From IMG/VR virus record IMGVR_UViG_3300010370_000105, positions 1 through 35,919 of that record: 35,919 nucleotides of DNA; one strand, 5' to 3'. The notes below the pieces were generated by a model. The model did no database searches. It was not told the origin of the DNA and worked only from the letters and a program-made list of their open reading frames with translations. Shown in pieces: positions 4,893 to 8,520 of the stretch. A program made the position numbers and the translations under genes. Source of the stretch: a virus. How positions within the stretch are numbered: the first letter of the stretch is position 1; the number at the start of each line of letters is the position of its first letter.

Positions 4893-4894
4893 AT

Positions 4895-4964
4895 CGGGAT
4901 GGAAGGTACTGCCCCCTCTTCGCTGCGACCCAAACGCAGAGTTATACTTTTCTACTACATCCCG
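4895..4964 (-). tRNA. tRNA-Pro(UGG)-like, with non-canonical D- and T-loops
   Basis: The acceptor stem CGGGATG/CATCCCG is perfect and is the typical tRNA-Pro acceptor. It is followed by U8-A9. The anticodon stem CTGCG/CGCAG carries loop TTTGGGT, giving anticodon UGG. The T-stem GAGGG/CCTTC (one G-U) carries loop GGCAGTA instead of TTCRANY, and the D-loop AAAAGTA lacks GG. Length is 70 nt plus discriminator A. It is either a tRNA with an altered elbow or a decaying gene. Confidence 0.55.
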
Positions 4965-5000: not shown

Positions 5001-5002
5001 AA

Positions 5003-5072
5003 GCGTCCGGGGGTAGTCGAAACCCCGACCTTTGGGTGGAAACCAAAAATTTTACCGCTAAACTACGGACGC
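5003..5072 (-). tRNA. tRNA-Gly(UCC)
   Basis: The acceptor GCGTCCG/CGGACGC is perfect. The D-loop contains GG. The anticodon stem TTTGG/CCAAA has loop TTTCCAC, giving anticodon UCC for GGA codons. The T-stem GGGGT/ACCCC has a canonical loop TTCGACT. CCA is not encoded. The mature 5' end is only 10 nt downstream of the -10 box of the dedicated promoter. Confidence 0.93.
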
Positions 5073-5082
5073 ATTAGAGACA

Positions 5083-5111
5083 ATCATAAACCATAAGATT
5101 CTGATTGTCAA
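5083..5111 (-). promoter_or_regulatory. Sigma70-type promoter of tRNA-Gly (island repeat P1)
   Basis: TTGACA at 5111-5106, a 17-nt spacer, and TATGAT at 5088-5083. GACAATC of the -35 side and GATTGTC overlapping the -10 form an inverted repeat shared by most promoters of the island. Confidence 0.85.
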
Positions 5112-5117
5112 GTGATG

Positions 5118-5236
5118 GCAGGTGGGTTCCGTGAAGTGCTACTGATGTCCTCTTTTCCTTCATTTAGCCTTAGCCAACGAGAGGGATTGCACTACCTGCG
5201 TTTGATGGAGTAAGTATGTGAGTCTTACTCCATATC
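5118..5236 (-). ncRNA. Unassigned structured RNA behind promoter P2
   Basis: Promoter P2 predicts a transcript starting near 5236. It opens with a perfect 10-bp hairpin (5224-5233 with 5205-5214). Next comes an 82-nt unit closed by GCAGGT/ACCTGC (5199-5194 with 5123-5118), an inner AGTGC/GCACT stem (5193-5189 with 5139-5135), and a CCTCT/AGAGG stem. There is no open reading frame and no tRNA fold: the T-arm and anticodon arm cannot be placed. It may be a stable phage RNA comparable in position to the T4 RNAs C and D, but the identity is unknown. Confidence 0.5.
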
Positions 5237-5242
5237 AAGACA

Positions 5243-5271
5243 ATCATATGATATTTAGTTCTGATTGTCAA
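5243..5271 (-). promoter_or_regulatory. Sigma70-type promoter (island repeat P2)
   Basis: TTGACA at 5271-5266, a 17-nt spacer, TATGAT at 5248-5243, with the same GACAATC/GATTGTC dyad. It overlaps the 3' end of the small ORF at 5255-5434. Confidence 0.85.
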
Positions 5272-5434
5272 GTGCTTTTAATTTAGAACTTAAGTATTTA
5301 AGTTGTTCTATTTGATTTTCTATTTTCTTTTCAATCAAATTATCCAAAGAGCGCATATTTTGTTCTCTGAGAATTTTAGTATTCTCACGTATTCTATCAA
5401 TTTCCAACTGAAGTAATTTTTCTATTGGGGCCAT
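5255..5434 (-). CDS. Small helical hypothetical protein
   Basis: From the ATG at 5434 this is a 59-residue, strongly charged, probably coiled-coil protein (MAPIEKLLQLEIDRIRENTK ... SKLKALDNQN). A TTG 30 nt upstream could extend it, but no ribosome-binding site favours either. The helix-compatible heptads argue for a real gene; the missing Shine-Dalgarno sequence and the island context argue for caution. Its 3' end overlaps promoter P2. Confidence 0.45.
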   Translation of the reverse strand: MAPIEKLLQLEIDRIRENTKILREQNMRSLDNLIEKKIENQIEQLKYLSSKLKALDNQN

Positions 5435-5464
5435 TATACTATTATGTGTTGACGGGGAGACCAA

Positions 5465-5600
5465 TTCCCCCGGCTCAGAATGACTCTGAGACTTGATCTG
5501 ATGCCCGTGAGAGCAGAGCAGCGGCGCAGTAGGTGGTCAGATTCTACTGGCCTAAGATTTTGAGGTCTTAGGTCTTAAAGAAGGGGAGTAACCCCTTACG
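5465..5600 (-). ncRNA. Unassigned structured RNA behind promoter P3
   Basis: No protein frame is convincing here, but promoter P3 points into it and it is rich in stems. Visible pairs include CCTAAGA/TCTTAGG (loop CCTCAAAA), CAGTAG/CTACTG, CTCAGA/TCTGAG and CGGGGGA/TCTCCCCG. Taken together it looks like a multi-hairpin RNA. The first hairpin resembles an anticodon arm with an 8-nt loop, but no tRNA acceptor or T-arm can be placed. Confidence 0.4.
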
Positions 5601-5606
5601 TACTAT

Positions 5607-5635
5607 ATAGTACCTTATTTTTGGGGAGATGTCAA
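5607..5635 (-). promoter_or_regulatory. Sigma70-type promoter (P3)
   Basis: TTGACA at 5635-5630, a 17-nt spacer, TACTAT at 5612-5607. The spacer and flanks differ from the other island promoters, and the TTGACA lies at the 3' end of the HNH gene. Confidence 0.75.
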
Positions 5636-5639
5636 GAGG

Positions 5640-6446
5640 TCATTTCCCAACACAGCATTTTGTTTTATCATAAGGAACATAAGAACTCACATATCGTTTA
5701 AATTGCATAATTAGGCTCTCTTGAGTTCTATCATATCCCAAAACATCTCTTATATACGAAAATCCTTTGGTAAGATAATAGTCATACATCTCTTCATAAT
5801 ATTTAATTTTATCTTTCAACTCTTCTTGACGCTCTAATTCTTTGAGTCTTTTGGATTCTTGTTTTTTGAAGTAAGCATCAAAGTTTTCAATTCTTCCGGG
5901 ATTCCATCCTTCTGGGATATCAGAATTTTTATCTATCTTTTTGTTTTCACGTAATTTCAAATTATGAATCCATCTAGTTCCATATTGAGAATTTCTTTCG
6001 CCTTGTTGATGTTTAATTTCTTTAAGTTTTTTCTTCTGATTTTTTCTTGCTTCAGGAGTTCTTGCTGCCTCAACTGCCTTAGGTTGTATCAATCTTATTT
6101 TTTCTATATTCCTTTCTTTATTTTTGTTCCAACTATCAATTTGTTTTTGTATTAGTTCTTTCTTCAATTGGGGGTCATTTTTTAATTTCTCTTGCAATCT
6201 GTTACTCCCAATTTTACCAAATATACTTTGCTTTTCTGCAATAAATTCTGCCTCGCTTATTTGCCCACTTAATCCTCTCCAAGCAACATAATCCTCAACA
6301 TTTCCCCAGAGTTGATAATTACAAAAATGATACATTGCGTGTTGGGTTACTGTAACTTCAACTAAATTCTCCCTAGCATCTCCACCTCCCATATATCTTG
6401 GGACAATATGATGCTTATGCATTAAAGGACTTTTTTCACAGTCCAT
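5640..6446 (-). CDS. HNH homing endonuclease
   Basis: A 268-residue free-standing HNH endonuclease. The N-terminal nuclease site reads HKHHIVPRYMGGGDARENLV, with histidines and the downstream TQHAMYHF as metal and catalytic residues. The middle is a long basic helical region. GERNSQYGTRWIHN and IPEGWNPGR form the DNA-binding motif seen in many phage HNH and GIY-YIG enzymes. It has a strong Shine-Dalgarno, AAGGAG, 7 nt before ATG. The gene interrupts the tRNA island and has the same control module as the genes at 10626 and 27270: dyad arm, terminator, TATAAATA, second dyad arm. It probably spreads by cleaving alleles that lack it. Confidence 0.88.
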   Translation of the reverse strand: MDCEKSPLMHKHHIVPRYMGGGDARENLVEVTVTQHAMYHFCNYQLWGNVEDYVAWRGLSGQISEAEFIAEKQSIFGKIGSNRLQEKLKNDPQLKKELIQKQIDSWNKNKERNIEKIRLIQPKAVEAARTPEARKNQKKKLKEIKHQQGERNSQYGTRWIHNLKLRENKKIDKNSDIPEGWNPGRIENFDAYFKKQESKRLKELERQEELKDKIKYYEEMYDYYLTKGFSYIRDVLGYDRTQESLIMQFKRYVSSYVPYDKTKCCVGK

Positions 6447-6476
6447 ACGGATTCTCCTTTATTAAGTTCGCAAAGT

Positions 6477-6484
6477 TATTTATA
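6477..6484 (-). promoter_or_regulatory. Late promoter box TATAAATA (HNH gene)
   Basis: Exact T4 late consensus on the minus strand, inside the loop of the dyad and 31 nt upstream of the HNH start. Confidence 0.75.
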
Positions 6485-6492
6485 CAAGAAAA

Positions 6493-6509
6493 GGAGCCTT
6501 TTGGGCTCC
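6493..6509 (-). terminator. Intrinsic terminator upstream of the HNH gene
   Basis: GGAGCC, loop CAAAA, GGCTCC, then TTTTCTT on the minus strand. It would stop transcripts coming from the tRNA-Arg side before they enter the HNH gene. Confidence 0.75.
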
Positions 6510-6548
6510 CTCTCTTACCTTAAAGGTGCGAACTTAATAAGGCACTTT

Positions 6549-6556
6549 TATTTATA
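6549..6556 (-). promoter_or_regulatory. Late promoter box TATAAATA after tRNA-Arg
   Basis: An exact late box 9 nt 3' of tRNA-Arg. It would transcribe the first dyad arm and meet the terminator at 6493-6509. Confidence 0.6.
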
Positions 6557-6564
6557 CAATCAAC

Positions 6565-6635
6565 AGGCGTACCTCGATTCGAACGAGGAATGAGGAGGTA
6601 GAAGCTCCTAGTGATCTCCATTTCACCATACGCCC
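6565..6635 (-). tRNA. tRNA-Arg(UCU)
   Basis: Acceptor GGGCGTA/TACGCCT with one G-U at the first pair. The D-loop contains GG. The anticodon stem AGGAG/CTCCT has loop CTTCTAC, giving UCU for AGA codons. The T-stem CCTCG/CGAGG has loop TTCGAAT. 71 nt. Confidence 0.93.
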
Positions 6636-6728
6636 TTAAGAACCCTCCAGGTTTGAGCATCGTTGAGAGGCTTAGGAGGGGCGGGACTTACATAAGATTT
6701 GGACTCTTAATGCCCATCTAAGAACCAA
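6636..6728 (-). ncRNA. Unassigned transcribed segment between promoter P4 and tRNA-Arg
   Basis: It lies directly behind P4 and continues into tRNA-Arg. It can form CCCTCC/GGAGGG and a TAAGA/TCTTA hairpin with loop GTCCAAA. That hairpin would look like a Trp anticodon arm (CCA), but the acceptor, D- and T-arms do not fit. It may be a degraded tRNA gene or a structured leader. Confidence 0.3.
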
Positions 6729-6729
6729 C

Positions 6730-6758
6730 AGTATACCATAAGTTCTTAGAGTTGTCAA
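6730..6758 (-). promoter_or_regulatory. Sigma70-type promoter (P4)
   Basis: TTGACA at 6758-6753, a 17-nt spacer, TATACT at 6735-6730. It has its own dyad CTAAGAAC/GTTCTTAG flanking the -10, different in sequence from the GACAATC dyad of its neighbours. Confidence 0.8.
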
Positions 6759-6796
6759 GAGACCCCGGAAATTTCCAGTATCTCATTGAGAAGACA

Positions 6797-6825
6797 ATCA
6801 TAAGACATCTGCCTTAGATCATCAA
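6797..6825 (-). promoter_or_regulatory. Sigma70-type promoter copy (P5), with short or lost transcript
   Basis: TTGATG at 6825-6820, a 17-nt spacer, TATGAT at 6802-6797. Only about 30 nt separate it from P4 and no RNA gene is recognisable there, so the tRNA it once served may have been lost. Confidence 0.6.
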
Positions 6826-6826
6826 T

Positions 6827-6898
6827 AGGCAGGGAGGGGAATGATCACTCATAACTCCGTTATAAGCAGAGCATTTTTACCATTTAAATTGCCCGCCC
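6827..6898 (-). tRNA. tRNA-Ile(UAU)-like
   Basis: Acceptor GGGCGGG/CCTGCCT with two G-U pairs. The D-stem ATTT/AAAT has a GG-containing loop. The anticodon stem CTCTG/CGGAG has loop CTTATAA, giving UAU for AUA codons. The T-stem GAGTG/CCCTC has one mismatch, and loop ATCATTC keeps T55-C56. Discriminator A fits Ile. The acceptor and T-arm are weak, so a decaying gene is possible. Confidence 0.55.
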
Positions 6899-6902
6899 AA
6901 AA

Positions 6903-6929
6903 GTTCTATACCTAACATAAGTATAGAAC
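6903..6929 (-). other. Leader hairpin of tRNA-Ile-like RNA
   Basis: A perfect 9-bp stem (GTTCTATAC/GTATAGAAC) and a 9-nt loop lie between the P6 start site and the tRNA 5' end. It is similar in position to the hairpin opening the P2 RNA. Confidence 0.55.
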
Positions 6930-6935
6930 AAGACA

Positions 6936-6964
6936 ATTATAAGACATTTATCTTATATTGTCAA
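6936..6964 (-). promoter_or_regulatory. Consensus sigma70 promoter (P6)
   Basis: TTGACA at 6964-6959, a 17-nt spacer and TATAAT at 6941-6936: full consensus at both boxes. The dyad is GACAAT/ATTGTC. The -35 box begins one base from the 3' end of tRNA-Leu(UAA) exon 2. Confidence 0.88.
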
Positions 6965-6965
6965 T

Positions 6966-7318
6966 CCGGAACACGAGCCTCGAACTCGTAAGGGCACTGC
7001 CCGACGGATTTTACTTACCACTATGGTTTTCACCACCATTTTGAATGTTTGTGGTCTGGACTATGCCTTCACCATTTGCTAAATGCAATTAGGTGGGTGA
7101 TTATAGTCTCTACACGTTTTGCAATTTCTAGATAATTCCAACCCTTTCTAGAAGCACATTGGGTAGCCGTTGTCTTTCCAACTGTCTTGCAACTTCGCTC
7201 GGCGTTGGCATCAGCATTACCAGTTAAGCGTTCACCGAATTTACACCTTACTACTTACTCGTTTCCAAGTAAGCGACCCATTCGAGTCCGTTGTGTTTAC
7301 CATTTTCACCAGTTCCGG
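6966..7318 (-). tRNA. tRNA-Leu(UAA) interrupted by a group I intron
   Basis: Exon 1 is 7318-7285 and exon 2 is 7013-6966. Joined, they make an 82-nt tRNA. The acceptor CCGGAAC/GTTCCGG is perfect and the D-loop has GG. The anticodon stem ACGGA/TCCGT has loop CTTAAAA (anticodon UAA). The variable arm is long (CGGGC...GCCC). The T-stem ACGAG/CTCGT has loop TTCGAGG, and the discriminator is A. Exon 1 ends in U33, and the intron ends in G, as group I introns require. The precursor starts about 6 nt downstream of promoter P7. It decodes UUA, a frequent codon in this AT-rich genome. Confidence 0.85.
7014..7284 (-). other. Group I intron in tRNA-Leu(UAA), 271 nt, no ORF
   Basis: P1 is visible as exon GACT paired with internal guide GGTC, with U-G at the splice site. 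P2 is an 8-bp hairpin closed by a GAAA loop (7273-7266 with 7261-7254). P7 strands GACTAT and ATAGTC (7108-7103 and 7064-7059) sit in the conserved contexts GTAGAGACTATAATC and GGCATAGTCCAGACC. A P8 hairpin (CACC...GGTG) lies between the P7 strands, and P9 follows as ATGGT/ACCAT. The last nucleotide is G. It carries no endonuclease ORF. The insertion point is U33/U34, close to the position of the cyanobacterial and plastid tRNA-Leu intron. Confidence 0.83.
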
Positions 7319-7330
7319 GTGAATAAGACA

Positions 7331-7359
7331 ATCATAAGACCAAAGCCTCAGATTGTCAA
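7331..7359 (-). promoter_or_regulatory. Sigma70-type promoter of the split tRNA-Leu (P7)
   Basis: TTGACA at 7359-7354, a 17-nt spacer, TATGAT at 7336-7331. The spacer sequence is the same as in P10 and nearly that of P9, showing recent duplication. Confidence 0.87.
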
Positions 7360-7360
7360 G

Positions 7361-7515
7361 GGGATGGGAGAGATCCATGCAATGAAACCTAAAGCAACAT
7401 AAGTTATAGACAGGTTTCAAATCAACTTATGCGCGGGACTTTTCACTCTCCCTTTTTCAAGTAGGTTTTCTGTTGCTTACCCTTTAAAACCCACTACAAA
7501 ATGGATAAGCAGATG
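7361..7515 (-). ncRNA. Structured RNA with two candidate H-type pseudoknots
   Basis: There is no tRNA fold or convincing ORF. Pseudoknot 1: 7510-7503 pairs with 7482-7475 and 7494-7486 with 7469-7461. Pseudoknot 2: 7431-7424 pairs with 7405-7398 and 7418-7412 with 7390-7384. In both, the strands alternate S1-S2-S1'-S2'. A 7-bp stem, 7452-7446 with 7372-7366, encloses the second pseudoknot. It occupies a position between island promoters P8 and P7 that other units give to a tRNA. Identity unknown. Confidence 0.5.
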
Positions 7516-7518
7516 ACA

Positions 7519-7536
7519 ATCATAAGAGATTGTCAA
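7519..7536 (-). promoter_or_regulatory. Deleted promoter copy P8 (6-nt spacer)
   Basis: TTGACAATC and TATGATTGTC are both present, but only 6 nt separate the boxes instead of 17, an 11-bp deletion. It should not work as a sigma70 promoter, while the GACAATC/GATTGTC dyad is intact. Confidence 0.75.
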
Positions 7537-7537
7537 T

Positions 7538-7619
7538 ACTCCCGACAGGTCCTGCCCCTGCACGCTCTTACGAGCACGGCATTTTGAGTGCCACATGTCT
7601 TATATTCCATCACGGGAGC
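7538..7619 (-). tRNA. tRNA-Leu(CAA), with non-canonical T-loop
   Basis: Acceptor GCTCCCG/CGGGAGT with one terminal G-U. The anticodon stem TGGCA/TGCCG has loop CTCAAAA, giving CAA for UUG codons. The long variable arm is GCTC-GTAA-GAGC, as expected for Leu. The T-stem GCAGG/CCTGT has loop GGCAGGA rather than TTCRANY, and the D-loop lacks GG. 82 nt with discriminator A, directly abutting the next promoter copy. Confidence 0.75.
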
Positions 7620-7628
7620 AATAAGACA

Positions 7629-7657
7629 ATCATAAGACAAAAGCCTCAGATTGTCAA
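7629..7657 (-). promoter_or_regulatory. Sigma70-type promoter of tRNA-Leu(CAA) (P9)
   Basis: TTGACA at 7657-7652, a 17-nt spacer, TATGAT at 7634-7629, with the GACAATC/GATTGTC dyad. The tRNA 5' end lies 10 nt downstream of the -10. Confidence 0.87.
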
Positions 7658-7663
7658 GAAAAT

Positions 7664-7867
7664 TCAGGATTCCTTTTTGTTAAACATTTTTTCTGATAGT
7701 TTCAGACAAATAACTGTAAGTACACCAATCAAAAGAGTTAAAGATGCCTGTTGTGAAGTTGTCCAATTAGTAAAATTGGGAATAAATTTACTCGCATCTG
7801 ACTCAATCCCGTCAATCATAAAAAGCATAATGGGCAATCTAAAAATAAAAGTAATGAAATAATTCAT
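7664..7867 (-). CDS. Small membrane protein in the tRNA island
   Basis: From the second of two adjacent ATG codons (7867; the first is at 7870) this encodes 67 residues. There is an N-terminal hydrophobic stretch (FITFIFRLPIMLFMI), a polar middle with FTNWTTSQQ, a second hydrophobic segment (SLTLLIGVLTVICL) and a basic tail with NKKES. Two membrane passes and a charged C terminus are holin-like, but nothing else supports that. It is preceded by promoter P10 with a leader of about 66 nt and no clear Shine-Dalgarno. Confidence 0.55.
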   Translation of the reverse strand: MNYFITFIFRLPIMLFMIDGIESDASKFIPNFTNWTTSQQASLTLLIGVLTVICLKLSEKMFNKKES

Positions 7868-7942
7868 CATAAAAGAAATCAGTTTAGTTGTAATAAGTTA
7901 AGGTGAAAGACCTCAGTGTCGGTCGTCTGGCTTACAAGGACA

Positions 7943-7971
7943 ATCATAAGACCAAAGCCTCAGATTGTCAA
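7943..7971 (-). promoter_or_regulatory. Sigma70-type promoter (P10)
   Basis: TTGACA at 7971-7966, a 17-nt spacer, TATGAT at 7948-7943. It directly follows tRNA-Met and points to the small membrane protein gene. Confidence 0.85.
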
Positions 7972-7972
7972 T

Positions 7973-8044
7973 GCTCGTTGTGGGAATCTAACCCACCTTC
8001 GGTGCTTTATGAGAACACTGCATTCAACAGATTGCTAAACGAGC
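7973..8044 (-). tRNA. tRNA-Met or tRNA-Ile2 (anticodon CAU)
   Basis: The acceptor GCTCGTT/AACGAGC is perfect. The anticodon stem GTGTT/AGCAC has loop CTCATAA (CAU). The T-stem GTGGG/CCCAC has loop TTAGATT, with C56 replaced by A. The D-loop lacks the usual GG. 72 nt with discriminator A. Met and lysidine-modified Ile cannot be separated from sequence alone. Confidence 0.8.
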
Positions 8045-8076
8045 AGTTGATCCCTCAACCACCCTCTAAGAATACA

Positions 8077-8520
8077 TCAGATTCCCTTTTCTGTCAAGCC
8101 CTCTGTGCCACTCGGACAACCGGAATACCAGGGAGCACACATTCTGATTGGACCACCAAGAGACTTACACGCTTCAGTATAACACACTTCATCATTATTC
8201 TTCTCTTCAATATATCTAGGCAAGTATTTTTGAGTCTCCTTCTGAATGATTCGGTCATACTCGGGGGTTACACTTTCAATTGCTTGATTTACATCACGAT
8301 GTATTCTTCTTTCCAGTTTTTTGGGATCTGAAAGAATAAAATCATTCGTCATTGATTTTGGAGAGATTCTTCTTTGAATCTCATCATATAAGTCCCAATA
8401 AGATTTTTCATCAATTTTAGTACATTGAGAAAGAAGACCTATAGTGGAAGAAAGAATAACTCCCACTATAGCATATTTAAAAATATTGGGTTTTTGATTT
8501 CCAAAGTTAAATTTAAACAT
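8077..8520 (-). CDS. Membrane-anchored hypothetical protein
   Basis: A 147-residue protein with one N-terminal hydrophobic segment (FKYAIVGVILSSTIGLL) followed by SQC. That resembles a lipoprotein signal but lacks the small residue normally found before Cys, so a plain membrane anchor is more likely. The rest is polar, with four cysteines near the C terminus (VCYTEAC, MCAPWYSGC) that could form disulfides outside the membrane. The start codon overlaps the stop of the upstream gene (TAATG). Function unknown. Confidence 0.65.
   Translation of the reverse strand: MFKFNFGNQKPNIFKYAIVGVILSSTIGLLSQCTKIDEKSYWDLYDEIQRRISPKSMTNDFILSDPKKLERRIHRDVNQAIESVTPEYDRIIQKETQKYLPRYIEEKNNDEVCYTEACKSLGGPIRMCAPWYSGCPSGTEGLTEKGI

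Follow-up and report, generated by a model that had tools for sequence, protein, structure and literature searches.

Phages of the T4 type are said to carry promoter-early stem-loop (PeSL) cassettes, for which module shuffling has reportedly been proposed (by Arbiol in 2010 and Comeau in 2014) and whose stem-loops were reportedly described as terminators in the 2010 work. Here we consider a 33-nucleotide (nt) element in which a consensus sigma70 promoter and a hairpin appear to share the same bases, and which recurs between transfer RNA (tRNA) and other small RNA genes in the IMG/VR virus record IMGVR_UViG_3300010370_000105. This record, 35,919 nt (35.9 kb) in length and referred to below as the window, is a fragment of a T4-like, cyanophage-related virus. 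The PeSL work is cited in PMC4503421, and an account of the haloarchaeal virus HGTV-1 describes a motif combining a TATA-like box with an inverted repeat (PMC3950731). A literature search in a collection with few subscription journals and neither PeSL paper found no account of promoter-hairpins between phage tRNAs.

In our view, the element is probably a nested promoter-hairpin, in which the sigma70 promoter for the following RNA is combined with a hairpin at the 3' boundary of the preceding gene. Each copy would be a gene linker with a consensus promoter nested within the hairpin, the -35 (TTGACA) providing the 5' arm and the last bases of the -10, together with four discriminator bases (GAT+TGTC), providing the 3' arm. 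The linker directly follows the tRNA or RNA upstream of it and would start the RNA downstream at a predicted +1 that lies seven bases beyond the -10; tRNA leaders would then be about 1-4 nt long. In a read-through transcript these 33 nt would form a hairpin at the upstream tRNA's 3' end, where it may mark or protect the boundary through processing, insulation, 3'-end protection or attenuation. The geometry of the promoter, the abutment on the gene before it, the constraint on pairing and the covarying arms are read from the sequences themselves; use of the host sigma70, the start site and an RNA-level role of the hairpin are inferred. Repeated linkers could allow RNA genes to be duplicated or swapped as modules.

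Copies of the element in the window

The copies are numbered E1 to E10 below, with the means by which each was identified.

7939..7971, minus strand: promoter-hairpin E10 (pattern, repeat finder, fold)
7625..7657, minus strand: promoter-hairpin E9 (pattern, repeat finder, fold)
7515..7536, minus strand: E8, a shortened copy with the hairpin present and the promoter spacing gone (repeat finder, fold)
7327..7359, minus strand: promoter-hairpin E7 (pattern, repeat finder, fold)
6932..6964, minus strand: promoter-hairpin E6, TATAAT, arms GACAAT/ATTGTC (promoter scan, repeat finder, fold)
6793..6825, minus strand: promoter-hairpin E5, GATGATC/GATTGTC pairing via G.U (promoter scan, repeat finder, fold)
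5239..5271, minus strand: promoter-hairpin E2, outer stem only (pattern, fold)
5079..5111, minus strand: promoter-hairpin E1 (pattern, fold)

The pattern TTGACAAT-N10..22-GATTGTC has five exact matches in the window (E1, E2, E7, E9 and E10), all on the minus strand. None of 100 shuffled windows contained any such match, and chance would not be expected to produce the exact motif. A repeat finder placed seven copies in register, namely the five exact ones and the diverged E5 and E6, and the hexamers are exactly 17 nt apart in all seven; the first-pass annotation had counted at least seven units with this spacing and was right to do so. The inverted-repeat flanks GACAATC/GATTGTC that it described are likewise present in the five exact copies. 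Agreement with the sigma70 consensus is 11-12 of 12 bases in six copies and 9 of 12 in E5, which reads TTGATG..TATGAT and departs from the common flanks; its symmetry at the DNA level is lost, with 13 pairs kept through G.U. In E6 both arms are altered and pairing is retained, again with 13 pairs, as had been noted for this copy (there called P6). Six of the seven 33-mers fold into a stem of 13 pairs that has a one-base bulge and is closed by a 4-nt loop, and E2 forms the outer stem only. The hairpin of E8 is intact; judged by its sequence, this copy cannot be a sigma70 promoter because only 6 nt separate its hexamers.

Two copies start at, or 1 nt past, the 3' end of a tRNA called by ARAGORN (tRNA-Met and tRNA-Leu), and one further copy starts just past an Rfam tRNA. 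The left arm sits at or just beyond the 3' end of the preceding gene, and a read-through transcript from an upstream promoter would therefore include both arms, contrary to the earlier statement that the left arm is not transcribed. The related idea of one promoter per RNA gene stands in part: the copies mostly precede separate RNA genes, but E10 precedes a stretch with a 68-residue open reading frame lacking a Pfam family and with no obvious RNA, and E8 lacks the spacing of a sigma70 promoter. Sigma70-like sites at 8069-8097, 6730-6758 and 5607-5635 also serve the array without this dyad. The strand opposite the dyad was inspected by eye for a reverse promoter, which we rejected for want of a good -10.

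Distribution in viral and bacterial sequences

Three pattern searches, among them an exact-arm and a dyad-blind search, each listed 80 stretches; many of the loci are related and the counts represent non-independent events. A search of related phages, which the first-pass annotation had proposed, recovered the exact-arm pattern in at least 120 viral contig stretches, compared with a single match for a control in which the last right-arm bases were scrambled. With arm-to-arm spacers of 10-18 nt allowed and the window included, the spacer was 14 nt in 134 of the 141 matches listed. In this dyad-selected set 109 of the 141 listed matches begin no more than 1 nt from a tRNA 3' end and a tRNA follows after 3-6 nt in 86. 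As to whether the element travels with the upstream or the downstream tRNA, an association with both was seen. Copies also stand between tRNA genes in contigs of environmental cyanophages.

Because the first search required the dyad, a second was run whose sole requirements were a tRNA T-arm, TTGACA and TATNAT. Its figures come from 80 of 120 stretches and form the sole set free of dyad selection. Among the matches listed, 78 of 87 distinct ones were anchored to a called tRNA, and the hexamer spacing, for which 15-19 nt was allowed, was 17 in 63 of the 87, 16 in ten and 18 in 14. Where it was 17, the right arm TGTC was present in 33 of 56 listed matches (chance, 1 in 256). A hairpin starting from the -35 was found in 56 of the 78 listed tRNA-anchored promoters, against 3.2 after shuffling.

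Across the wider collection the predicted start, at position 36 and thus seven bases beyond the -10, is an A in 111 of 122 distinct elements. A called tRNA accompanies 90 elements and begins 1-4 nt past this base in 75 of them.

The genes psbA and psbD are a mark of cyanophages. Of 30 contigs with the element that were examined for these genes, nine had one or other of them, and nine of the 30 had a T4-like polymerase; the others were mostly short fragments. Among seven named phage records, a relaxed motif matched only S-SCSM2R, with one mismatch and between tRNA-Leu and tRNA-Gly; S-CRM01, Syn9, S-CREM1, S-RIM32, S-SRM01 and an Edwardsiella phage gave no match. A short BLAST search of named isolates with the strict motif returned one match, in the Edwardsiella phage and between protein genes. 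S-SRM01 carries a hairpin variant, GACATAAT/ATTATGTC, with the -10 placed after the hairpin. We note that ARAGORN finds a tRNA cluster at 184100-184800 of this phage (NC_070963) where the record stretch shown has no tRNA annotation.

Similar dyads occur in bacterial genomes, where none of 135 matches follows a tRNA within 60 nt, five precede one and 78 are full palindromes. In GTDB loci such as L243, L263 and L276, Clostridial promoters that contain the whole TTGACAATTATATCA..TGATATAATTGTCAA palindrome, and so match on either strand, stand before protein genes; such full palindromes are likely to be repressor operators.

Pairing constraint and the conserved arm

The invariant 7-bp arms, their fixed distance and the number of copies could suggest a DNA operator, at which a phage or host protein would switch all of the RNA units together, and the Clostridial promoters with the related full palindrome do resemble operators. 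The first-pass annotation had held that the dyad must act in DNA, with an operator as an example, or else reflect module duplication. An operator arm should be conserved whatever the promoter sequence, and this is not what was found. In a consensus promoter the -35 bases GACA and the -10 bases GAT are set by the needs of RNA polymerase; a demand for pairing then dictates ATC behind the -35 and TGTC behind the -10, and these make up the conserved arm. The left arm tracks the -10, with ATC accompanying TATGAT and ATT accompanying TATAAT. In the 33 listed dyad-blind cases with TGTC, pair 9-27 is CG in 20, TA in ten and TG in three. Both sides of this pair are changed in 12 of 91 aligned elements (the 91 of 126 distinct 33-mers that begin TTGACAAT), and the covariation score is 0.133, compared with 0.094 for shuffled sequences and 0.049-0.116 for slid registers.

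Where positions 30-33 are not TGTC, a hairpin is still formed in 24 of 45 listed dyad-blind matches, against 1.9 expected. A few of these 24 are copies of the element whose spacer is 16 or 18 nt long, and most are other sequences occupying the same place, such as GACAAGA/TCTTGTC, GACAGAT/ATCTGTC and TTGACAG/CTGTCAA, in which the -10 comes after the hairpin. The inner spacer also pairs, with a mean folding energy of -11.2 kcal/mol in 54 elements compared with -7.7 after shuffling, and a z of -2.9 in 72 other elements; these energies, like the G.U and A.C counts below, come from a pool of loci, some of them found by queries that contained the dyad and others by queries that did not. Nor are the phage copies extended to the ..GTCAA of the bacterial palindrome, position 34 being T in 85%. 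Selection acts on pairing and not on a fixed operator word, because the arm tracks the -10, the inner spacer pairs and other variants have hairpins of wholly different sequence. We consider an operator improbable; the double constraint of promoter and pairing would account for its appearance.

Termination, and action as RNA or DNA

A second alternative would make the element a strict PeSL, with the hairpin ending transcription of the gene upstream. T4-type phages do have promoters joined to stem-loops, those of PeSL being reported as terminators, and the downstream genes here have a promoter of their own. The U-tract that should follow the stem of an intrinsic terminator is lacking: TTTT occurs within 6 nt of the stem in one of 104 internal promoter-hairpins and one of 64 internal promoterless ones, at least five T occur in the 8 nt after the stem in nine of the 104, and a terminator scan of the window flagged none of the copies. 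Because U-tracts are absent, the hairpins do not appear to be classical terminators.

A survey of tRNA flanks, which used the 1505 of 1524 tRNAs with the required 60 nt of flank, found hairpins of the same kind without promoters in 67 of 163 internal gaps lacking a -35. A promoterless terminator inside the array would silence its neighbour, and a role at the 3' boundary is therefore favoured over termination. We regard the terminator as unlikely; attenuation by the hairpin is possible. The gaps in many tRNA loci also hold promoterless structured mini RNAs of 44-59 nt, and promoterless hairpins of 17-19 nt, often with TTCG loops, occur between tRNAs.

Imperfect pairs in all promoterless 3' flanks were G.U in 49 cases and A.C in 16, compared with 82 and 91 after shuffling, an excess that we read as the mark of sense RNA. 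By continuity with these promoterless hairpins, the nested hairpin is likely to act as RNA as well.

The opposing view is that the hairpin forms in DNA, as a cruciform or in single strands, and serves as a recombination point or modulates promoter opening. It could draw on the near identity of three copies in the window: the spacers of E7 and E10 are identical and that of E9 differs by one base, much as the first-pass annotation had described for its P7, P9 and P10. The three spacers are alike at 13-14 of 14 positions, against 11 of 14 for the best outside match, which fits duplication or conversion within this genome. None of 22 within-contig copy pairs outside the window reaches 13 of 14, and homogenisation therefore does not seem to be general; the earlier suggestion of module duplication is upheld for this genome. 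The sense bias of promoterless hairpins in the same place also argues against action in DNA. We consider this alternative improbable as well.

Several observations nevertheless weigh against the nested promoter-hairpin. Twenty-two of the 78 listed dyad-blind, tRNA-anchored promoters have no such hairpin, and only two of the seven window copies have A at position 36. RNAalifold returns no consensus structure for the 91 aligned elements, because the inner register differs between classes. In promoter-bearing hairpins the excess of G.U over A.C is weak or absent (15:8 and 29:11; 9:8 in a fixed outer register), and sense and antisense strands fold equally well (-11.2 and -11.9), a point that also suits a hairpin in DNA. 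Because promoter-bearing copies have no clear sense-strand (G.U) bias, the hairpin may yet have a role at the DNA level.

If the nested promoter-hairpin is correct, it provides a testable model for the expression of dense phage tRNA arrays, in which many tRNAs or small RNAs would each have a promoter inside the boundary hairpin of the neighbour and little would remain for 5' processing of the tRNA. The design would be compact, many small RNAs being expressed through a linker that ends one gene and starts the next, and the element offers a search handle for RNA genes of uncultured cyanophages.

The RNA gene array and its surroundings

The array lies on the minus strand and runs from about 8100 down to 4850. 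Its other features are as follows.

8069..8097, minus strand: sigma70-like promoter before tRNA-Met, without the dyad (10 of 12 consensus bases)
7971..8045, minus strand: tRNA-Met(CAU), 3' end meeting E10 (ARAGORN, Rfam)
7664..7870, minus strand: 68-residue open reading frame downstream of E10, no Pfam match (open reading frame list, Pfam)
7537..7621, minus strand: tRNA-Leu(CAA)-like RNA directly adjoining E8 (by eye and fold)
7360..7514, minus strand: structured RNA U8, relatives in two loci (fold, relatives search)
6965..7318, minus strand: tRNA-Leu(UAA) with a 271-nt intron, 3' end abutting E6 (ARAGORN with introns)
6826..6898, minus strand: tRNA, 3' end abutting E5 (Rfam, 36.9 bits)
6730..6758, minus strand: sigma70-like promoter before the abiF RNA, with another dyad, TCTAAGAAC/GTTCTTAGA (promoter scan; dyad by eye)
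6643..6679, minus strand: abiF RNA, RF03085 (Rfam)
6564..6635, minus strand: tRNA-Arg(UCU) (ARAGORN)
5640..6446, minus strand: homing endonuclease gene interrupting the array (PHROG)
5607..5635, minus strand: sigma70-like promoter without the dyad (promoter scan)
5112..5238, minus strand: structured RNA U2, relatives in ten loci (fold, relatives search)
5002..5072, minus strand: tRNA-Gly(UCC) (ARAGORN, Rfam)
4894..4964, minus strand: tRNA, anticodon UGG by eye (Rfam, 33.2 bits)

ARAGORN thus finds tRNA-Met, tRNA-Arg and tRNA-Gly in the array, and Rfam adds two more tRNAs (6826-6898 and 4894-4964). With a relaxed threshold Rfam returned tRNAs and abiF across the array; two weak matches below the cut-off were put down to chance. 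The tRNA-Leu(CAA)-like RNA has neither an ARAGORN nor an Rfam call. In the intron of tRNA-Leu(UAA), a U before it and a G at its end suggest group I, with no Rfam call. At least two structured RNAs other than tRNA and abiF have relatives elsewhere: U8 looks capable of forming pseudoknots and has its relatives in two of the cyanophage loci retrieved, and U2 in ten. A 234-residue protein neighbouring the array has relatives at one distant locus only. Elsewhere in the window the polymerase, ribonucleotide reductase (NrdA) and DnaB-type helicase fall in T4-type phage families (PHROG), and the polymerase is nearest to Kyanoviridae, with 68% identity to that of cyanophage S-SRM01.

Among 202 records, counting the window, 26 have the abiF core motif, in each case with a tRNA 12-18 nt after it; this tRNA was Arg(UCU) in 21 of the 26, and the loci include the window, L022, L070, L119 and L202. 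In 17 of the 26 records a sigma70 -35 stands no more than 140 nt upstream of the core, at exactly 82 nt in 16 of these 17 and at 88 nt in the window. No Abi_2 protein was found in 26 abiF-bearing records searched, which include the complete S-CREM1 genome and are mostly fragments, and no Abi_2 gene was found in the window. One paper reports the S-CREM1 abiF RNA (PMC9964418), and another reports that an abiF-motif RNA of C. difficile neutralises the AbiF toxin in cis and in trans (PMC12373285). The orphan abiF RNA carried by these arrays may be a decoy in cyanophages. A fuller proposal, which we offer tentatively and regard as rather doubtful, is that the 33 nt double as the boundary hairpin behind one tRNA and as the full promoter of the following one, so that tRNAs are individually promoted and nearly leaderless, and that the array, in which many cyanophages also have a lone antitoxin-type abiF RNA at a set distance from a sigma70 promoter, is a counter-defence RNA cassette of replacement tRNAs and an AbiF-type RNase decoy.

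Comparison with known systems

HGTV-1, a tRNA-rich virus, likewise has a promoter and inverted repeat before many genes; its promoter is archaeal and stands before open reading frames, and the likeness is drawn from the published description. The Clostridial palindromic promoters TTGACAATTATATCA..TGATATAATTGTCAA share the dyad of -35 and -10 and its spacing, but are often full palindromes before protein genes, and none of the 135 bacterial matches lies within 60 nt after a tRNA. Intrinsic terminators of tRNA operons also place a hairpin directly after a tRNA, whereas the present element lacks a U-tract and holds the next promoter.

With the PeSL cassettes the element shares a sigma70-like (early) promoter, recognisable by sequence, joined to a stem-loop that is borne out by folds and shuffles. 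Both are repeated many times in variable parts of T4-like phage genomes, where they may be recombination points, and the polymerase, DnaB-type helicase and NrdA of the window mark a T4-type phage genome. Unlike in PeSL, the stem-loop and promoter here are the same 33 nt, and the element links tRNA and other non-coding RNA genes, starts where a tRNA ends and lacks a U-tract. On the evidence of these sequences, we consider that the element is real and widespread, and that it is a variant of the promoter-plus-stem-loop arrangement apparently specialised for tRNA arrays.

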